From a virus, in IMG/VR virus record IMGVR_UViG_3300035034_002318, positions 1 to 44,907 of that record: 44,907 nucleotides of DNA; one strand, written 5' to 3'. The notes under the pieces were generated by a model. The model ran no database searches and was not told where the DNA came from. It saw only the letters and a program-made list of their open reading frames with translations. A program made the position numbers and the translations under genes. Below are positions 675-13,343 of the stretch, one piece after another; position 1 is the first letter of the stretch; each line of letters opens with the position of its first letter.

Positions 675-1412
675 CACATAGCACCTAATTACGCTTACTT
701 ACTGTCGTTTCCGGAGCCGGCTATAGCGTAAAGTCCCCGTTATGTGGTCAATACGTGCTGCTATGTGGCATGGAGCGGGGCTGCTATGTGCCCAATACGT
801 GCCCACTATGTGGTCAATGGGGGCTGCTATGTGGCATGGAGTCAGAGCACATAGCGTCGAGCTATGCGAAGAAGAACGGCCACTATGGCACTAGGTCGAT
901 GCCCACTATGGCACCCCTATCGGACCCCTATCGCACCAATACGATGCCCACTATGTGGTGTGACTCGATGTGCTATGTGCTCTGCTATGTGCTCTGCCGG
1001 CTAGCCACTATGTGGTCAGTACTGGCTAGCTATGTGCTCTGCACGTTCAACCAATAGCACGCTGTGTGCTCTGTGTGTTCTGCTCTGTGTGCTCTGTGTC
1101 GGCAGACTGTGTGCTCTGTGTGTTGACCACATAGTCCGGCCGGCGTGTGGCTATGCGATCAATACGTTGGACCACATTGACCACATAGCAGAGCTTGTGC
1201 ACCTAGATCGACAGCACCGTACTAGGGGCATAAGACTGGGTAAGGTAGTATGAACTAGGGTTGTGTATTACTTATTACTGTGTGTTGTTCTGTGTAGTTG
1301 TGTATTGTTATCTATTGTTATCTATTAATTTGTGTATCACATAGTTGTGTATTGCCCACTATGTGCAAATGGTCAGAGCGTTGTGCACCTAGATGCACAG
1401 TGCCGCTATGTG
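675..1412. repeat. Iteron-like array, 16 exact CTATGTG motifs in both orientations
   Basis: CTATGTG occurs on the plus strand at 761, 784, 806, 827, 951, 973, 985, 1008, 1030, 1359 and 1406, and as CACATAG at 675, 848, 1128, 1182 and 1338; near matches (TTATGTG, CTATGCG, CTATGGC) fill gaps. Many copies extend into three subfamilies: CTATGTGGTCA, CTATGTGGCATGGAG and CTATGTGCTCTG. A separate 14-bp direct repeat, TTGTGCACCTAGAT, is found at 1195-1208 and 1381-1394. Spacing is irregular, so this is not CRISPR. Clustered, mixed-orientation short repeats next to AT-rich DNA are typical of replication origins, partition sites or multi-operator control regions; which of these applies cannot be decided from sequence. 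Confidence 0.8.
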
Positions 1413-5703: not shown

Positions 5704-6087
5704 ATGATGGAAGACCCGTACGTGAGGTTTGCCAGGCTTGCCCGTGTGATCGACGGCGACACCGTCGACATGTGCGTTGACCTCGGCTGGGGCTTGACGC
5801 AGAAGGTCCGATTCCGGTTGCTGGGTGTAGACACCCCTGAACTCCGGTCTTCGGACCCCGTCGAGCGGGAAGCGGCCCGCGCAGCGGCCCAGTTCACACT
5901 GGACACCCTCGACGGCTGGTCCCACCTGGCGACAGACGCGCATCCCCTGTGGGTGGAGTCCCGCAAGACCGGCAAATACGGCCGGTGGTTGGCGCGCATT
6001 GGAACTCGTGACGCCCAAGTGGAGGGCGACTTGAACGATCTTCTGCTGGCCGAAGGGCACGGCAAGCCCTACGTTCCCAGAAGGTGA
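5704..6087 (+). CDS. Thermonuclease (staphylococcal-nuclease-like) domain protein
   Basis: 127 aa, ATG ATG at 5704, no strong ribosome site. It keeps the hallmarks of the SNase family: DGDT near residues 17-20, R-x-R-x-x-G-x-D-T-P-E around residues 35-46, and K-x-x-x-G-K-Y-G-R-W-L around residue 87. These match the calcium ligands and catalytic arginines and glutamate of the family, which cuts DNA or RNA with calcium. There is no signal peptide, so it acts inside the cell. It is about the minimal size for the domain. Possible roles are host nucleic acid breakdown or genome processing. The family call is firm, the role is not. Confidence 0.9.
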   Translation: MMEDPYVRFARLARVIDGDTVDMCVDLGWGLTQKVRFRLLGVDTPELRSSDPVEREAARAAAQFTLDTLDGWSHLATDAHPLWVESRKTGKYGRWLARIGTRDAQVEGDLNDLLLAEGHGKPYVPRR

Positions 6088-6189
6088 ACCGATCAATCTG
6101 CATCGCGCATCGCGGAGAGTTTCGAGCCCCGACTTTTTGTTTTGACCGCGCTTTTCGCATCTCAAGACACCTCACGCAAGGAGCCCGCA

Positions 6190-6735
6190 GTGTCGGAATG
6201 GTGGAATGAAGATCATGACTTCGACGAGGTCGTAGAGAACTTCGACTACGACGAAGAAGTTCCGAACCCCGAGCACGCCAGCGATGACCTGTCTGAAGGT
6301 CTTTTGGTCGAGTGGGTTGGAGGTAAGGTCTTCGTGGGCGGCTGGTTCGCCCCGAAGACAGCCCACAGGATCGAGGCCCTCGTGTTGACAGTTTCATCCC
6401 TGCGGGACATCGCCAATTGCACTCTGAACACGTTCAAAGCTCAGTGGCGGCTGCACAAAAACGGCCAGCACCAAGAAGAAGAACTTTACGAGTCTTCAAA
6501 AAGGGCTCTTGGCAGGCTGACCCTGGTCTCCAGCGCAACCACCAACGATGAGCGGATTCTTGGGTACGGCTCAATCAAGGAAGAAGAGGATGATTACATC
6601 CTCGCCGTCGCTTCCCAGATTCAAGTCGCCACCGCGGTGCTGATGTTTGTTCGAGACAAGTGCGGTACTGAAGCCGTCAATGAGGCATTGTTCCGAACCG
6701 GCGCGTCCTTGGTGACCCTTGCCGAGGAGCTTTAA
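6190..6735 (+). CDS. Hypothetical acidic protein
   Basis: 181 aa from GTG 6190, chosen because AAGGAG lies 7 bases upstream; the frame extends to a TTG at 6142 without a ribosome site. The N-terminal 35 residues are strongly acidic (DHDFDEVVENFDYDEE). A globular part follows with VEWVGGKVFVGGWF and then helices. No cysteine motif or membrane segment. No family recognised. Confidence 0.7.
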   Translation: MSEWWNEDHDFDEVVENFDYDEEVPNPEHASDDLSEGLLVEWVGGKVFVGGWFAPKTAHRIEALVLTVSSLRDIANCTLNTFKAQWRLHKNGQHQEEELYESSKRALGRLTLVSSATTNDERILGYGSIKEEEDDYILAVASQIQVATAVLMFVRDKCGTEAVNEALFRTGASLVTLAEEL

Positions 6736-6805
6736 TCGTAGACGTGGGCTGATTGACGAGATCGACTGTGCTGAGGACACTCAGCGCTTTGCATCACATC
6801 ACTTG

Positions 6806-6825
6806 AACAAGGAGAAACATCATGA
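6806..6825 (+). promoter_or_regulatory. Strong ribosome site within a 20-nt leader shared with 43179-43198
   Basis: AACAAGGAGAAACATCATGA occurs here and, on the opposite strand, at the start of the lipoprotein gene at 43182. A near copy precedes the membrane protein at 4390. All three drive membrane-associated products. Confidence 0.75.
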
Positions 6826-7016
6826 GCAACAAAGTCACGAATCTTTGGGGTCGCGAACCAGCTTTGATCCTCGGTGCGATCACTGCTGTCGCAGCGGTGA
6901 TGATTTCCGCCCTCGCCGGAGATCTCGACGACGGTCTGATCATGGCCGCCGTCGCAGCCGTGTTGGCGGTGGTGACCCGGACGCAGGTGTCGCCAGCGAC
7001 TGACGAAGTAAGCTAG
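6822..7016 (+). CDS. Small two-helix membrane protein, holin-like
   Basis: 64 aa with a textbook ribosome site. The start MSNKVTNLWGREPA is followed by two hydrophobic helices (about residues 15-33 and 38-54), joined by a short acidic turn, and a charged tail. Small WGREPAL-type two-helix proteins are common in phages of Actinobacteria and are often labelled holins or unknown membrane proteins. Here it stands before a tail-fibre cluster and far from the endolysin at 41092, so the holin call is uncertain. Confidence 0.6.
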   Translation: MSNKVTNLWGREPALILGAITAVAAVMISALAGDLDDGLIMAAVAAVLAVVTRTQVSPATDEVS

Positions 7017-7149
7017 TCCCAACTCCGAGAAGCTGAACGTCATCTCGAAGTCCAACGTACAGCTATACAATCAATCAACCTGGACTATTCCGGCTTAAAC
7101 AAACTCCGGCCGGGGTGGTCCAGGCTCGCATCTCAACCCGGAGACCACC
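7017..7149. other. Intergenic stretch with an inverted repeat before a TTG-started gene
   Basis: CCTGGAC at 7079-7085 is complementary to GTCCAGG at 7118-7124, and inner CCGG words could extend the pairing. TATACAAT at about 7062-7069 resembles a -10 element, but no convincing -35 lies at the right distance. A leader hairpin or promoter for the fibre cluster is possible. Confidence 0.3.
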
Positions 7150-7515
7150 TTGGCCGCTGAATATGACATTGACGTGGTGATCGGGGACTCGTGGCCGCCT
7201 GGCCCCTTTGCCGAATTCTTGCTCGTCATTCGAGAATCCGAAAACGGCGACACCTTCACCCCGGTCAACCTCACCGGCACGATCGTTACCCAGTCGATCC
7301 TGCACAAAGGTGCAGCCCCAGCGGGCGCACCGGTCTTGTCGCTGGACATCAAAAACCAGACCACCAGCACGGGAGAGATCGGCATTCGACTGAACGCCAC
7401 CGAGTCGGCAAAGCTGGAGAATCTGACGTATCACTGGAGTCTGAAAATCAGATTCGACGCCGAAAACATCCTCACGCCGATCATGGGACTGATTCGCACA
7501 ACGGGCCTGTCCTGA
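7150..7515 (+). CDS. Tail/baseplate protein, BppU-like fold likely
   Basis: 121 aa starting at TTG 7150; the GGAG 6 to 7 bases upstream decides the start. The pattern (an early GDSWPP, then FLLVIRES, PVNLTGTIV and LSLDIKNQT) fits the beta-sandwich, N-terminal BppU-like domains found in baseplate and fibre-attachment proteins of phages. It is the first of five tail-type genes ending at 10665, and its stop overlaps the next start (TGATG). The family is inferred from pattern, not from a search. Confidence 0.6.
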   Translation: MAAEYDIDVVIGDSWPPGPFAEFLLVIRESENGDTFTPVNLTGTIVTQSILHKGAAPAGAPVLSLDIKNQTTSTGEIGIRLNATESAKLENLTYHWSLKIRFDAENILTPIMGLIRTTGLS

Positions 7516-7835
7516 TGGCTGACTACGAGATCAACCTTCTGGCTACGACGACGGAATTCGTCGACCTTCTCGGATCGCTCGACTATCAGATCAATCTGGA
7601 ATACGGTTTCCAGGCCAGCACCAACACTGGCAACGCTCGCAACAGCTTCGTTTTTGATCAGCCGACTCCAGCCACTACGTGGACCGTCGTTCACACCCTC
7701 GGGTTTCGTCCGAACGTGACGGTGGTCAGCCCGGCAGGCATCGAGTTCTTCCCAAGCGTCGAATTTGTGTCGGACACTCAAATCCTCATTCGTGTGGGCG
7801 CCACCGCTCTCGCCGGATTCGTCTATCTGTCGTAG
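7515..7835 (+). CDS. Tail fibre-associated protein
   Basis: 106 aa, ATG overlapping the previous stop. The C-terminal half has the beta-rich pattern TWTVVHTLGFRPNVTVV and ends FVYLS, common at the ends of phage fibre and receptor-binding proteins. No transmembrane or catalytic motif. Probably a structural fibre or baseplate subunit that works with its neighbours at 7150 and 7848. Confidence 0.6.
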   Translation: MADYEINLLATTTEFVDLLGSLDYQINLEYGFQASTNTGNARNSFVFDQPTPATTWTVVHTLGFRPNVTVVSPAGIEFFPSVEFVSDTQILIRVGATALAGFVYLS

Positions 7836-7847
7836 GAGACAAAGCCC

Positions 7848-8972
7848 ATGGCAACGCCACAATTCCCCGCAGGCATCGACCTTCTGAAAGCGTCGATCAT
7901 CAACGCTGTCGCCCATCCGGTTGGGTCCGATCCGACGACGCCGGCGAACGGGCAGTTCTGGTACCGGACCGACACGAACCGACTCATGGTGCGCCAGGCC
8001 GGTGTCAACCAAACGGTGGCGATCCTCGACGACGTCACCGCCGGCTCGATCACCGGGGCACTCTGGAACGCTCAGTCCGTTGTTGTCGCCGTCACCGACG
8101 ACACTCCGATCGCTCAAGTCATCGGCGAGGGCCAGATGCTTGGCCGGGCCACCGGAGGCGACGTCACGGCGTTGACGGCAGCACAGATCCGAACGCTGAT
8201 CAACGTGACGTCGGGTGCCGACGTCACCAACACGGCCACCGTGACCGCCGCTGGCGCCCTCATGGACTCTGAGGTCGACGACGACATCAAGACGCTTGTG
8301 CTGCCCGCTGCGACGACGATCAGCGCGTTTGGTGCGTCCCTCATCGACGACGCCGCATCGACCAACGCTCGGACGACGCTCGGTCTCGTCATCGGCACAA
8401 ACGTCCAGGCTTACTCGGCAATTCTGAACGCAACGACGGCCTCGTTCACGACAGCGCTGAACACGAAGCTGACCAACATCGAAACGGCTGCGGAAGTCAA
8501 CGACACCGCAGCGGAGATCCTCGCCAAGCTGATCACGGTCGACGGTGCTGCCTCCGGCCTCGACGCCGACACGCTGGACGGCGCCCAGGGTTCGGCCTAC
8601 GCGCTCCGAACCTACGTCGACACCGAAGTCTCGGGTGCCATCACGGCGCTCGTCGGCGGAGCGCCAGGAGCGCTGGACACACTCAACGAACTCGCCGCTG
8701 CCATCAACGACGACGCCTCGTTCACCTCGACGGTCACGACCGCTCTCGGTTTGCGTACCCGGAAGTACTCGGCGTCGATCGGCAACGGGTCGGCGACAGC
8801 GATCGCTGCGTCTCATGGTCTGGCGACGACGACCGTCATCGCCCAATGTTTCCGCACGTCGAACGACTCGCAGGTCTTCCCTGATGTGGTGATCACCTCG
8901 GCGTCGGCGGTGACGTTCACGTTCGGAGTTGCTCCGACCACCGACGAGTTCTACGTCGTCATCGTCGGCTGA
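7848..8972 (+). CDS. Tail fibre protein
   Basis: 374 aa with an AGGAGA ribosome site. It starts with a phage-fibre-like region (PTTPANGQFWYRTDTNRLMV), followed by alanine/threonine-rich repetitive beta or triple-stranded segments (including LDADTLDG) and a short globular end (FPDVVITSASAVTFTFG). Such composition is typical of trimeric fibres that reach from the baseplate to the host surface. It is followed directly by two more fibre-cluster genes with one-base overlaps. Confidence 0.75.
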   Translation: MATPQFPAGIDLLKASIINAVAHPVGSDPTTPANGQFWYRTDTNRLMVRQAGVNQTVAILDDVTAGSITGALWNAQSVVVAVTDDTPIAQVIGEGQMLGRATGGDVTALTAAQIRTLINVTSGADVTNTATVTAAGALMDSEVDDDIKTLVLPAATTISAFGASLIDDAASTNARTTLGLVIGTNVQAYSAILNATTASFTTALNTKLTNIETAAEVNDTAAEILAKLITVDGAASGLDADTLDGAQGSAYALRTYVDTEVSGAITALVGGAPGALDTLNELAAAINDDASFTSTVTTALGLRTRKYSASIGNGSATAIAASHGLATTTVIAQCFRTSNDSQVFPDVVITSASAVTFTFGVAPTTDEFYVVIVG

Positions 8973-9160
8973 TGGCTGCCCTCGAGTACGTCGGCACGGC
9001 AATCGAAATCGGGGCTTCGGCGCAGGCGGGTGGCGCAGACGTGCCGGCGCTCGTGCAGCAAGACGCCACCGACGTCGGCCGGACCGTGTTCATCCAGTTC
9101 ACCGGCGACAGTGCGCCGACCGGCATGGTCCGAGGCGACATCCTGATTCGGCAGGCCTGA
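8972..9160 (+). CDS. Small tail-cluster protein
   Basis: 62 aa, ATG overlapping the previous TGA by one base. Acidic and beta-rich with no membrane segment; VGRTVFIQFTGDSAPTG suggests a small beta-sandwich. The position between two fibre genes, with overlaps on both sides, indicates a structural or assembly role. No family is recognised. Confidence 0.6.
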   Translation: MAALEYVGTAIEIGASAQAGGADVPALVQQDATDVGRTVFIQFTGDSAPTGMVRGDILIRQA

Positions 9161-10665
9161 TGGCGACAATCCCAGGCGACATCGCCGCCCTCACTCTCGT
9201 CGTCACCGGCCGGGACATCCTTGCGTCGTGGGAAGCACCGGACGACGGCGGATCGCCGATCGACAACTACCGCATTTGGATCGAGGAGGACGGCACCGGC
9301 ATTTGGTTGCCGGTCGACAAAGGCACGGCCCTGTCGCACACCTTCGCCGGCTTGTACGGGTCGACGAAATACAACTTTACGATGCGGGCCGAGAACGCAA
9401 TCGGCGAATCGGCAAACGCAACGTCGGCGTCGGCGACGACCGCTGTCGCACCCGATTTCAGGGTCCAGCGCGGGATCACCGTCGTGTCGGCAAACGGCGA
9501 AACAACGACGCTTGCCTCGCCTGTGGCCAGCCTCAATCGGGCGTTCGTTCGGATGTCGAACAACCGGCACACCGGCGCTTCGACCACGGCCAGTACCACC
9601 AACGGCGACGACCTGTCGGTCGCAGGGTATTTGTCGGCGGTCGACACGATCACCTGGATCCGGCCGACGACGACTCCCGACATCACCCAGTCGGTGTATT
9701 GGGAGGTCGTCGAATACGTCGGTCGGCCGGGAGCCCCGAACGAGTTCATCGTCCGGGACCGGTCCGACGTGGATGTTACTTCTCAGCTCACGAACACCAC
9801 GATCAGCGGAGTCGTGAACGCCGACCGGTGCGTCCCGTTCATCACTGGTTACATCACCGACGATTTGACGGCCGGGGCGAACGGGCTCGCGTCCATCGCC
9901 TATCTGACGTCGGCCACGAATCTGCGATGCGAGAACGGTCGGACCAGCGGCTCTGTAGCAAATCGTTTGCATGTGACAACGGTCGAGTTCGTCGGCTCAG
10001 CCTGGTCGGTGGGCCACGGCCGGGTCACCGGCCAAACCGGCGACACCGGAACGATTCCGCTCGTCACCGGATCCGACGGTGTCGCCGGAACCTCGTTCGA
10101 CGTCGTCGACTGGGCGACAGCTGAAATCACCTCGTGGGGTCACAAAGGCGACGAAGCAAACGAAGCGATCGCCGACCATTTCCCGAAGCTGTCGCCCGGT
10201 TCGACGACCGCTGTCGACTGGGAGTTCCACACCGAACACGACGGGACCGACGACGACCATGTCGTGCACGTTCTGAAGCACGCCGACCTGGCGGTCTCCC
10301 GGTTCACGATCAGACACAACGACCTTGGCGAAGCGACGATCAACGTGACCGATGCGGCGCTGACCGACATGACGCTGTCGTCGCTCCTGATCACGGGGGG
10401 GTCGTCGGGATCCGGTACCGCCTATGCCCGTGGTTGGCGGTCGGTTCGGCTGCACTCGCTGACCCAAGCTTTTTCTTATTCCGGGCGAAATGGCAATACC
10501 TGCTCCTGGGAAATCCAGGCGATCAACTACGACTCGATCCTGTCGAGCCTTGTGCCGGAAGTGACGAACGCTCTGGTTTACGACGGCTCGCAGTGGGTCG
10601 CTGCGGACTTCCTGATCTACGACGGCTCGCAGTGGGTGGCGGCCGAGGTTGTGCCGACCGCCTAG
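9160..10665 (+). CDS. Tail protein with a fibronectin-III-like domain and C-terminal YDGSQW repeats
   Basis: 501 aa. Residues about 8-95 have a fibronectin III pattern (ILASWEAPDDGGSPIDNYRI, then STKYNFTMRAENAIGES). A long beta-rich body follows. The end carries two copies of YDGSQWVAA separated by DFLI, resembling the NGTQW end of the fibre gene at 35604. Fibronectin domains on phage tails are thought to hold carbohydrate or the cell surface weakly. Its last four bases overlap the end of a minus-strand gene. Confidence 0.75.
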   Translation: MATIPGDIAALTLVVTGRDILASWEAPDDGGSPIDNYRIWIEEDGTGIWLPVDKGTALSHTFAGLYGSTKYNFTMRAENAIGESANATSASATTAVAPDFRVQRGITVVSANGETTTLASPVASLNRAFVRMSNNRHTGASTTASTTNGDDLSVAGYLSAVDTITWIRPTTTPDITQSVYWEVVEYVGRPGAPNEFIVRDRSDVDVTSQLTNTTISGVVNADRCVPFITGYITDDLTAGANGLASIAYLTSATNLRCENGRTSGSVANRLHVTTVEFVGSAWSVGHGRVTGQTGDTGTIPLVTGSDGVAGTSFDVVDWATAEITSWGHKGDEANEAIADHFPKLSPGSTTAVDWEFHTEHDGTDDDHVVHVLKHADLAVSRFTIRHNDLGEATINVTDAALTDMTLSSLLITGGSSGSGTAYARGWRSVRLHSLTQAFSYSGRNGNTCSWEIQAINYDSILSSLVPEVTNALVYDGSQWVAADFLIYDGSQWVAAEVVPTA

Positions 10666-10809: not shown

Positions 10810-12597
10810 TTATTCGTCTTCAAGGTCAGGTACGTCAGATTCTATCAATCCGTACCCGGTCGGATCAGCAAGCATGTAGCGCTTCGCTGGCGGACGACCA
10901 ATCCTCTTCGCCTCGCGCTTGTCTGGTGGCGCTTCAACGACTCTCCCGCGCCTGATCAGAGCGTCGAAGGTTTGGTCAAAGAGGTCGCGGTCCTTCTTCT
11001 TTCCGACCGGCAGGCGGTTGTGGACTTTTGTCTGGGTGGCAAACTCGCCGTGGTATCCCGGCCACCACCCCACCATCTTCTCGATGTGGGCGATGAGTTG
11101 ATTGACGTTGCTGACACTGGCTTCGCTGTCGACCATCTTCGTTGTGGGCATCAGGAACTCGACCAGCTTGCGCGCTTGATCGAGTGTGTGCACGCCCATG
11201 CTGGGGTCTTCGCAGTTGACGGCCAGCAGAAGTGCCAGCTTCAGGAAGTGGTTCTGGAGGCGTGCGAACAGTTCGCCCTCCTTCGCCTTCGCTTGGAGCC
11301 ACAACAGGTGGTCGTCAACGGCGACGGTTGCGTGAATGTCCAGGTACATCATCGGCTTGGATTCTGACCAGGCTCGTGTGTTGTTGAGATCTCGAGCGAG
11401 GCTGCCGAAGTTGACAGGGGTGAGTTCAGCGAAGGGGATGTACGGCTTCGGCGTTCCTTTGACGTACATGAACCGGTTGGTGAAACCGGAGGCGACGTCG
11501 TTGGACCCCAAGATGGACGACATCGCTTCGGGCTGAGCGCCCACCGAGAGGTTGTAGAACGGATCGACTGCGAGACTGTCTCCGTGTCCACGACTGGAAA
11601 CCGCCGAGGTGTGCCCGTCGTACATGCTGATGAGCACTTCGCGAAGCGTGCTTCCCCTGCGTGTCGATGCGGTCATGAGTTCAGCCAGTTCGTCCATCGA
11701 CGCCCAGCCGTTCACCGACTGCGGTTCGGCTGCGCCGGGCGGAAGCCAAGACATGAGGTCGACCAATGCTTCGCCGGAACCGGGCCGGCTGAGGTGCTTC
11801 ACGCCCTTTGTGGTCGGGTCTTCCGGGTCAAACTTCAGGGAGCTGACCTCCCTGACAAGCTTCTTGGCGAGGTTGATCGCTCGCGACTTGCCGCTGCCCG
11901 TGTCGCCCATGTAGGCGACGAATGAATTGGTGCGAACTTCGGTTTCGCCCCACTGGAATCGCACCCGCTGGCCGACGGCAGCCGACAGCATCTGAAAGCC
12001 GAGGAACAGGCGGAACTCGTCGGGGATGGTGGTGTTGTCGGTGGCCACCATCCATTTGTGCAGGAAGGTGTCCTCGGGGGCGTAGTCCTTCCAGTCAAGC
12101 TCGTATTCGGGATACACCTCGTCGTATTCGGGGTCGACCACGCCGAACACCTCGGCAATCATCGTCTCGCCCAATTCGGCCAGCTCGAGGCGGACGGTGG
12201 TCTTCATTTCTTCAACGTCGTAGCCCAGGTCGACCAGGCAAACTTCGATCAGCTCTGGGAATGATCGGCCTTTTTTGTAGCCGGGGATTGGGTACCCGAA
12301 TCTGATCGCGGCGAGGTCCATGATGTCGCCACCTTCAGCGCAAGCCCCGCAGTAGTAAACGTTCTTCTCGCTGTTGAGCCAAGCGCTTGGAATCTTGTCA
12401 GGGTGATCAGGCTTCGGACACGAGACCATGATGGACTCTGTCCGTGCTCCGTCAGACGGGTCCGATTTTCCACACCAGCGGCGATACGCCTCGACGATTC
12501 CAAGGTCCGAGATGATTTCAAGGCCGCCCTCCAGAACCTTCCGCTCCTCCATCCCCACGTCGGGAATGAACTGGTCCCACCTTCCCTCTTCGATCAC
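10810..12597 (-). CDS. Primase-helicase: CHC2-type zinc finger fused to P-loop helicase
   Basis: 595 aa. Residues 60-86 form a DnaG-like CHC2 zinc ribbon (C60, H65, C83, C86, then AEGGDIMDL). After a linker comes a P-loop ATPase with Walker A GDTGSGKS at residues 231-238 and a Walker B-like WASMDELAEL. The overall shape resembles the DUF3987-type helicases of phage and plasmid replication genes. The C-terminal 150 residues look like a winged-helix DNA-binding end. It has no primase catalytic domain; that is supplied by the AEP gene upstream, whose stop overlaps this start (ATGA). Together they should unwind and prime the fork. Confidence 0.85.
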   Translation of the reverse strand: MIEEGRWDQFIPDVGMEERKVLEGGLEIISDLGIVEAYRRWCGKSDPSDGARTESIMVSCPKPDHPDKIPSAWLNSEKNVYYCGACAEGGDIMDLAAIRFGYPIPGYKKGRSFPELIEVCLVDLGYDVEEMKTTVRLELAELGETMIAEVFGVVDPEYDEVYPEYELDWKDYAPEDTFLHKWMVATDNTTIPDEFRLFLGFQMLSAAVGQRVRFQWGETEVRTNSFVAYMGDTGSGKSRAINLAKKLVREVSSLKFDPEDPTTKGVKHLSRPGSGEALVDLMSWLPPGAAEPQSVNGWASMDELAELMTASTRRGSTLREVLISMYDGHTSAVSSRGHGDSLAVDPFYNLSVGAQPEAMSSILGSNDVASGFTNRFMYVKGTPKPYIPFAELTPVNFGSLARDLNNTRAWSESKPMMYLDIHATVAVDDHLLWLQAKAKEGELFARLQNHFLKLALLLAVNCEDPSMGVHTLDQARKLVEFLMPTTKMVDSEASVSNVNQLIAHIEKMVGWWPGYHGEFATQTKVHNRLPVGKKKDRDLFDQTFDALIRRGRVVEAPPDKREAKRIGRPPAKRYMLADPTGYGLIESDVPDLEDE

Positions 12598-13343
12598 AGA
12601 ACACTCCTTGAAGTCAGGGAACCGGACGCCAGCGCAAGGGCTGGGTCGACGGGAATCAGCTCGGTGATCGGGGCACCGGGGTCGTAAAAGAAGCTCTCAC
12701 GGCCCGTCTTTTGGTTCACCCCCAACGGAAGCCGAAGAAGGTTTCCAAAGCCATCACTTCCGATCTTTGATTGCTTCGGGAAAACCTCGACCGTCATCGA
12801 CGGAAAGCTGCACGCCTTGTAGAAGTTCTTGCCTTTGACGGCCTCGAACACCTCGCCGCCGCCCCAGGACTTGAGGATGATCTGACCCAGTGATCTAGCG
12901 GTGTTTGCGTCGATCGCTTCGCCGAAGCAGCCGTAGATGTGGAGGCCTTTTGACCCACTGAAGGTCGTCATGATCTTCAGCTCTGGGTACAGCCGGCCCA
13001 TTCGCCAGGCCAGGCCGTCGCCCAAGCTCCGCACCTGCTGAGTCAATTCGCCTCTGGCGAAGTGGTCGGGATCGCTGAAAACATCCCTCGGCACCACCTT
13101 CTCGCCCGACTTCGTGCGGTACTCCTCGTCGTCGAAGTCGATGTCGAAAGCAACCACTCGGGTCAGCCCGTCATGGTCCACGAGGTAGTGGCCAAGCGTG
13201 GTTTTTCCCTCAACGTGGAGTCGTATGTCCTTGGCCGTCCAGGGGTGATGAATCGGGTTGTACGCTCCGTTCTTGCGCTGGAACGCCTTCACGTCGCGCC
13301 GCTGGATGAACGTCTTTCCTAGTGCCTGAATGAAGTCTGCCAT
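12594..13343 (-). CDS. Archaeo-eukaryotic-type (AEP) primase
   Basis: 249 aa. Motif I is FDIDFDDEE (D67 and D69), motif II is FSGSKGLHIYG (S129 to H135), motif III has EVFPKQ (E186), and the end has GNLLRLPLGVNQKTG (residues 200-214). These are the signatures of the AEP superfamily in the LigD/TOTE-like branches, which make RNA or DNA primers using two metal ions. Nothing else is fused to the domain, so the helicase and zinc finger come from the coupled gene at 10810-12597. A DNA-repair polymerase role is the alternative. The family call is strong. Confidence 0.9.
   Translation of the reverse strand: MADFIQALGKTFIQRRDVKAFQRKNGAYNPIHHPWTAKDIRLHVEGKTTLGHYLVDHDGLTRVVAFDIDFDDEEYRTKSGEKVVPRDVFSDPDHFARGELTQQVRSLGDGLAWRMGRLYPELKIMTTFSGSKGLHIYGCFGEAIDANTARSLGQIILKSWGGGEVFEAVKGKNFYKACSFPSMTVEVFPKQSKIGSDGFGNLLRLPLGVNQKTGRESFFYDPGAPITELIPVDPALALASGSLTSRSVL

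Follow-up and report, generated by a model that had tools for sequence, protein, structure and literature searches.

The gene-poor gap and its genomic setting

The window, by which we mean the whole stretch of virus DNA that was analysed (44,907 nt, IMG/VR record IMGVR_UViG_3300035034_002318), contains an ORF-poor gap at positions 505-2330 that reaches from a leftward gene to the first plausible rightward gene. The leftward gene (about 1-447/504, minus strand) is cut by the contig end, and neither a family nor a relative was found for it. The gap holds an array of CTATGTG/CACATAG words on both strands (array A, 675-1412), a plus-strand tract with a strong bias for G and T and homopolymer runs of both bases (1657-1835), and a second array, again on both strands (array B, 1961-2288). 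Array B consists of 12 copies of TTGTTGAAC/GTTCAACAA, six per strand, which follow each other in steps of 9, 12 and 13 bp; a search of IMG/VR with its motif gave 33 matches. It also includes an inverted repeat roughly 108 bp long (1956-2063), for which a strong fold is predicted as single-stranded DNA. Rfam matches at 1960-2073 stayed far below the gathering scores and reflect this inverted repeat, and a structured RNA was therefore rejected. In the small rightward gene that borders the gap (2330-2755), in-frame copies of TCTGAGTAT at 2525-2587 encode the peptide SEYSEYSEY. None of the small genes of the window matched the genes near the gap in related phages.

Protein comparison identified phages of Gordonia, Rhodococcus and Tsukamurella with genomes of about 72-83 kb (cluster CS and its kin) as the nearest group, and the window is distant from them: its Cas4-type exonuclease and its helicase share about 30% identity with their counterparts in this group. 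The major capsid protein is 44-71% identical to that of environmental relatives, and there is in addition one identical short contig. A megablast search with the first 24 kb of the window against 50,697 phage records gave no match, and no relative was found when IMG/VR was searched with the Cas4, helicase and left-flank proteins. Because the relatives are longer, we take the window as a partial genome: it probably covers about 55-62% of the whole phage genome, with perhaps 40% missing, and is likely to be an internal piece. The leftward ORFs at the two ends of the contig are in frame, which raised the idea of circular closure; this was rejected in view of the size of the relatives (72-83 kb), the natural start of the Cas4 gene at MKLHHL and a gene order that fits a fragment.

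The window encodes a DUF3987-type helicase with a zinc-finger-like N-terminal part (10810-12597, minus strand) and, next to it, an archaeo-eukaryotic-type, PrimPol-like primase (12594-13343, minus strand). No gene for a Rep-type, O-like or ParB protein was found among the scanned genes of this incomplete fragment. The DUF3987 helicase is possibly the initiator; the mean pLDDT of its predicted model (42) is too low to judge a C-terminal winged helix. Array A lies about 9.4 kb from the helicase gene, as compared to about 1-3 kb for the arrays of the relatives, and synteny with them is loose because genes for staphylococcal-nuclease-like (SNase) and tail-fibre-like proteins separate array A from the helicase. 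These genes occupy positions 5704-10665 of the interval between gap and helicase, and the annotated relatives examined have no such block there.

Sites, spacing and duplex stability in array A

The first-pass annotation, which was made from the letters of the window, had described 16 exact CTATGTG/CACATAG copies in 738 bp, some of them extended on both strands, with additional near-matches and no good gene, and this description is confirmed. Eleven exact copies are on the plus strand (761, 784, 806, 827, 951, 973, 985, 1008, 1030, 1359 and 1406) and five on the minus strand (675, 848, 1128, 1182 and 1338); copies with one mismatch are found, for example, at 740, 1062, 1085, 1107 and 1151. Only one further exact copy, at 2853, is present in the 44.9 kb. 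Shuffling predicts 1.5 copies for the whole window, with 5 in the most extreme shuffle. Dinucleotide shuffles of 601-1500 predict 0.5 copies (maximum, 3), and no 7-mer of any kind occurred more than five times in them. The extended form CTATGTGGTCA has five copies, three on the plus and two on the minus strand, all of them inside array A. In a position-weight scan, 29 sites of at least 8 bits were detected in 850 bp at array A, as compared to 0.27 per 850 bp elsewhere in the window. Thus, array A has the many short sites far above chance that are expected of an iteron origin, but it lacks the single orientation. The two ORFs that cross it (755-1057 and 1032-1253, 100 and 73 amino acids) differ from the phage's own genes in their GC content by codon position, and the coding-potential check makes a coding role for them unlikely.

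With an exact two-copy motif, IMG/VR returned 33 matches, none of which was more than an isolated pair or triple, at about the level expected by chance. A search of viral and bacterial genomes with a three-copy motif yielded minisatellites, a single plasmid iteron array and no relative of array A.

Neighbouring copies on the same strand are mostly 21-23 bp apart, and spacings of 12, 47 and 54 bp occur as well. The best-phased part is at 740-1036 on the plus strand, where steps of 21, 23, 22 and 21 bp are followed by steps of 22, 12, 23 and 22 bp. The adjacent same-strand spacings, of which there are only nine, have a period of 11.0 bp and thus correspond to whole helical turns (R=0.80; p=0.007 relative to uniform spacings and allowing for the period scan), and the distance of 21-23 bp is consistent with helical phasing. 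According to the weight matrix, nearly all information resides in the 7-bp core and almost none beyond about +12. Tandem Repeats Finder reported only short local units for the region, and degenerate units with an 11-bp period (CTATCGCACCC; 906-937, plus strand) occupy a hole between exact copies. Since the cores are conserved and the spacers are not, array A is not a simple tandem duplication; judged by this pattern, it looks like a set of protein sites.

The most meltable DNA of the window lies within the array. Duplex stability at about 1246-1352 is the lowest of the whole 44.9 kb (z 5.2-5.6), and both the most meltable 60-bp and the most meltable 100-bp stretch fall into this segment, which we regard as a candidate unwinding element. 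CTATGTG copies are present on both of its sides, its top strand is rich in T (39% T at 1200-1340), and a 10-bp tandem repeat, TATTGTTATC, is located at 1303-1326. It had initially been proposed that the array is situated beside AT-rich DNA; this is correct as far as it goes, but AT-rich DNA is found inside the array as well. The element adjoins the sites and is both AT-rich and T-rich, as expected of an iteron origin (unwinding elements are T-rich; PMC10797057, review), and easy melting inside a gap is in part to be expected because gaps are AT-rich anyway.

Gaps in related phages and known systems

CTATGTG occurs at chance level in 16 related records, and the word is thus private to the phage of the window. 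The initial idea that phages rarely leave so much space without genes proved untrue for this group: the gaps of the relatives at this place measure about 0.7-2.4 kb. Eight relatives carry repeat arrays of their own in a gap that is poor in ORFs and close to the helicase gene. In the 10-36 kb examined per genome, the densest repeated 8-mer lies in or at the edge of this gap in GTE7, TIN4, ReqiDocB7, the three further genomes G007, G008 and G010, and Linetti, and the repeat words of these seven are all different: CTAGTACCAC, CTAAGTATA, CCCTAAAT, GGGAGACA, CGTTGACA, TTAATACA and GATAGTGAA. The GGGAGAC array of G007, a word unrelated to CTATGTG, has spacings of 12, 21, 22, 31, 42 and 54 bp, much like those of the window, and a period of 10.5 bp (R=0.90, p=0.005). 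The gap of Butterball contains 11 GATAGTGAA-type units that follow each other at exactly 19 bp, in addition to TTGTACCA repeats. The limits of the gaps are approximate and follow either the annotation or stretches poor in ORFs. Of the 12 regions with a defined gap, the window included, 11 have their most meltable 100 bp inside the gap; in the remaining one, Kampe, the gap comes second in meltability. In G012, for which a gap was not defined, the most meltable 100 bp are in a cluster of ACCCGTAG repeats. No clear array of the kind of array A was detected in G004, G005, Reynauld, Trogglehumper, Jumbo and Benczkowski14, and the densest repeats of Mbo2 are in coding DNA.

Some of these gaps also hold TTGTACCA or TTGTATTA repeats, often 12 bp apart, which may be compared with array B of the window. 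Proliferation of a short word is seen in the relative G003 (contig IMGVR_UViG_3300028831_000079, 2450-4858), where GGCCAGC is present about 46 times in 2.4 kb of coding and noncoding DNA.

Classical iterons are direct repeats. Array A resembles the iteron origins of plasmids with Rep initiators (RK2, F, R6K, and pBpOF4-02 with Rep3) in its many short sites about two helical turns apart, which adjoin AT/T-rich, easily melted DNA. It differs from them in that about a third of its copies are inverted, its spacers are not conserved, no Rep gene was found in the fragment, and the helicase/primase set is that of a phage, with a DUF3987 helicase and a PrimPol-type primase. The plasmid pBpOF4-02 of Alkalihalophilus pseudofirmus came up in the motif search itself: at 329-1000, just upstream of the Rep3 initiator gene, it carries CACATAG repeats about 22 bp apart. 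This match is convergent rather than a sign of homology; by analogy, it shows the same word and spacing in an array that is positioned like plasmid iterons. The spacing of iterons in helical turns matters, and insertions of half a turn disturb Rep binding (PMC10797057). The origin of phage lambda, with its O protein iterons, likewise combines phage initiator sites with an adjacent AT-rich opening region (PMC10797057), but it has only four iterons, and no O-like protein was seen in the window.

The noncoding gap at the right end of Gordonia cluster CS phages (Butterball, Linetti, Chelms) is close to that of the window in its phased repeats, here the 19-bp GATAGTGAA array, in its easily melted DNA, in its location near the helicase and in a second repeat family nearby (TTGTNNNA). 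The motif, however, is another one, the CS units are strictly direct at 19 bp as compared to the mixed orientation and spacing of about 22 bp in the window, and Linetti has a 191-bp terminal repeat nearby. In the papers found, the CS gap is not described as an origin.

A putative iteron-type origin and its alternatives

The array and its spacing, its coincidence with the most meltable DNA, and a comparable layout with other words in the relatives suggest that the gap with array A is an iteron-type phage replication origin, to which we assign a probability of roughly 0.6. The first-pass annotation had offered iterons for a replication initiator or a partition/centromere site as readings; the former gained ground with the helical-type spacing, the meltable DNA inside the array and the different words in a comparable gap of the relatives, while the latter finds no backing in the fragment, with no ParA or ParB among the scanned genes. 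Since five of the 16 copies are inverted, the array would work like an iteron origin rather than be a classical one.

From this layout we infer protein binding, strand opening and the start of replication at the gap, as well as the identity of the initiator. The phage initiator, which would probably either have its gene in the missing portion of the genome or be the DUF3987 helicase, would bind to the CTATGTG cores, most of which face the same side of the helix, and would build a nucleoprotein complex there. Through this complex, the AT/T-rich DNA of about 1246-1352 would be opened, and the DUF3987 helicase and the PrimPol-type primase would be loaded onto it.

The strongest rival, although we consider it unlikely, is a regulatory region in which a phage regulator binds operators of the leftward early operon, because leftward early genes start at the gap. 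In the window as well as in the relatives, the gap is upstream of leftward genes, and the relatives have CTAGTACCAC-type repeats both at the gap and at intergenic spots of the early arm. However, 16-29 sites over 740 bp exceed the usual set of operators and are in both orientations, no sigma-70-like promoter was found, and the relatives are reported to be probably lytic with no repressor identified (PMC13313380). Like the stoperators of cluster A/CA phages, array A consists of a short asymmetric site that is repeated many times in intergenic DNA, but stoperators are dispersed genome-wide and in one direction (PMC13313380), whereas 16 of the 17 copies in the window are concentrated in 738 bp of a single gap and on both strands. 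It is distinctly improbable that array A serves as a site for terminase or concatemer processing near the physical genome ends. This possibility arises because the 191-bp direct terminal repeat of Linetti, the only relative in which one was seen at the gap, starts some 0.65 kb away from the main array of this phage, and direct terminal repeats are a property of CS-cluster phages (PMC5559632); yet no end or terminal repeat was seen in the window, terminase-cut sites usually need few sites rather than phased repeats around an easily melted core, and the repeat words differ while the terminase genes are conserved.

The other explanations are less likely. The growth of short words in an unconstrained gap, with no binding protein involved, has precedents in the spread of GGCCAGC through coding and noncoding DNA in G003 and in the CTATGTG minisatellites of many unrelated genomes. 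Such passive growth is similarly improbable here, given that only the 7-bp core and not the spacer is kept, that both orientations occur, that helical-type spacing recurs with other words in the relatives, and that the array coincides with the most meltable DNA. If the phage were a plasmid-like prophage, array A could be its partition or centromere site with a ParB-like binder, and the multiple short sites near a large inverted-repeat array might be invoked for this; the scanned genes of the fragment had no match to ParA or ParB, and with relatives that are predicted to be lytic (PMC13313380), we regard this as highly improbable. Even more remote is a cluster of weak boxes for the host DnaA. 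The actinobacterial DnaA box, which we take to be TTGTCCACA (TTATCCACA), is one mismatch away from TTGACCACA, and array A contains five such near-boxes. But an exact TTGTCCACA/TTATCCACA is absent from the array, the invariant CACATAG reaches beyond the box, and GGTCAA is missing after most copies.

Iteron-type origins as such are already known, and the point of interest in array A is the turnover of the word under a stable layout. It is tempting to speculate that the origin of this group retains its architecture, i.e. a phased array, a melting core and a position near the helicase, while the word is replaced between lineages, and that the binder is the C-terminal domain of the DUF3987 helicase. 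This combination is a speculative one, and we consider it quite unlikely; if true, the replicative helicase would recruit itself to a fast-changing origin with no separate Rep protein. If the word does change quickly while the layout stays the same, the group would offer a useful example of co-evolution between initiator and site. A published survey that lists the repeats of nine Gordonia phages was unable to identify origins (PMC4524720), and we found no description of a replication origin for the lytic Gordonia/Rhodococcus/Tsukamurella group in the literature searched, several original genome papers lying outside that search. Our comparison singles out one gap that holds a phage-specific array, and both the mapping of the origin and the hunt for its initiator thereby become directly testable in cultured phages, for example Butterball, GTE7 or TIN4.

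Not all repeats of the group are specific for one phage. Unlike the phage-specific arrays, CTAGTACCAC is common to several genera (GTE7, TIN4 and Montyvirus), in which it is found in and near the gap (L071, 27521-29089; L093, 27476-28033; L095, 16750-17716); this shared word is possibly a regulatory site. In Rhodococcus phage Perlina (12600-16100), small leftward genes are separated by gaps of about 100 bp in which the words AGAATGTCA and CATTCCCAG recur; these are perhaps repeated promoters.
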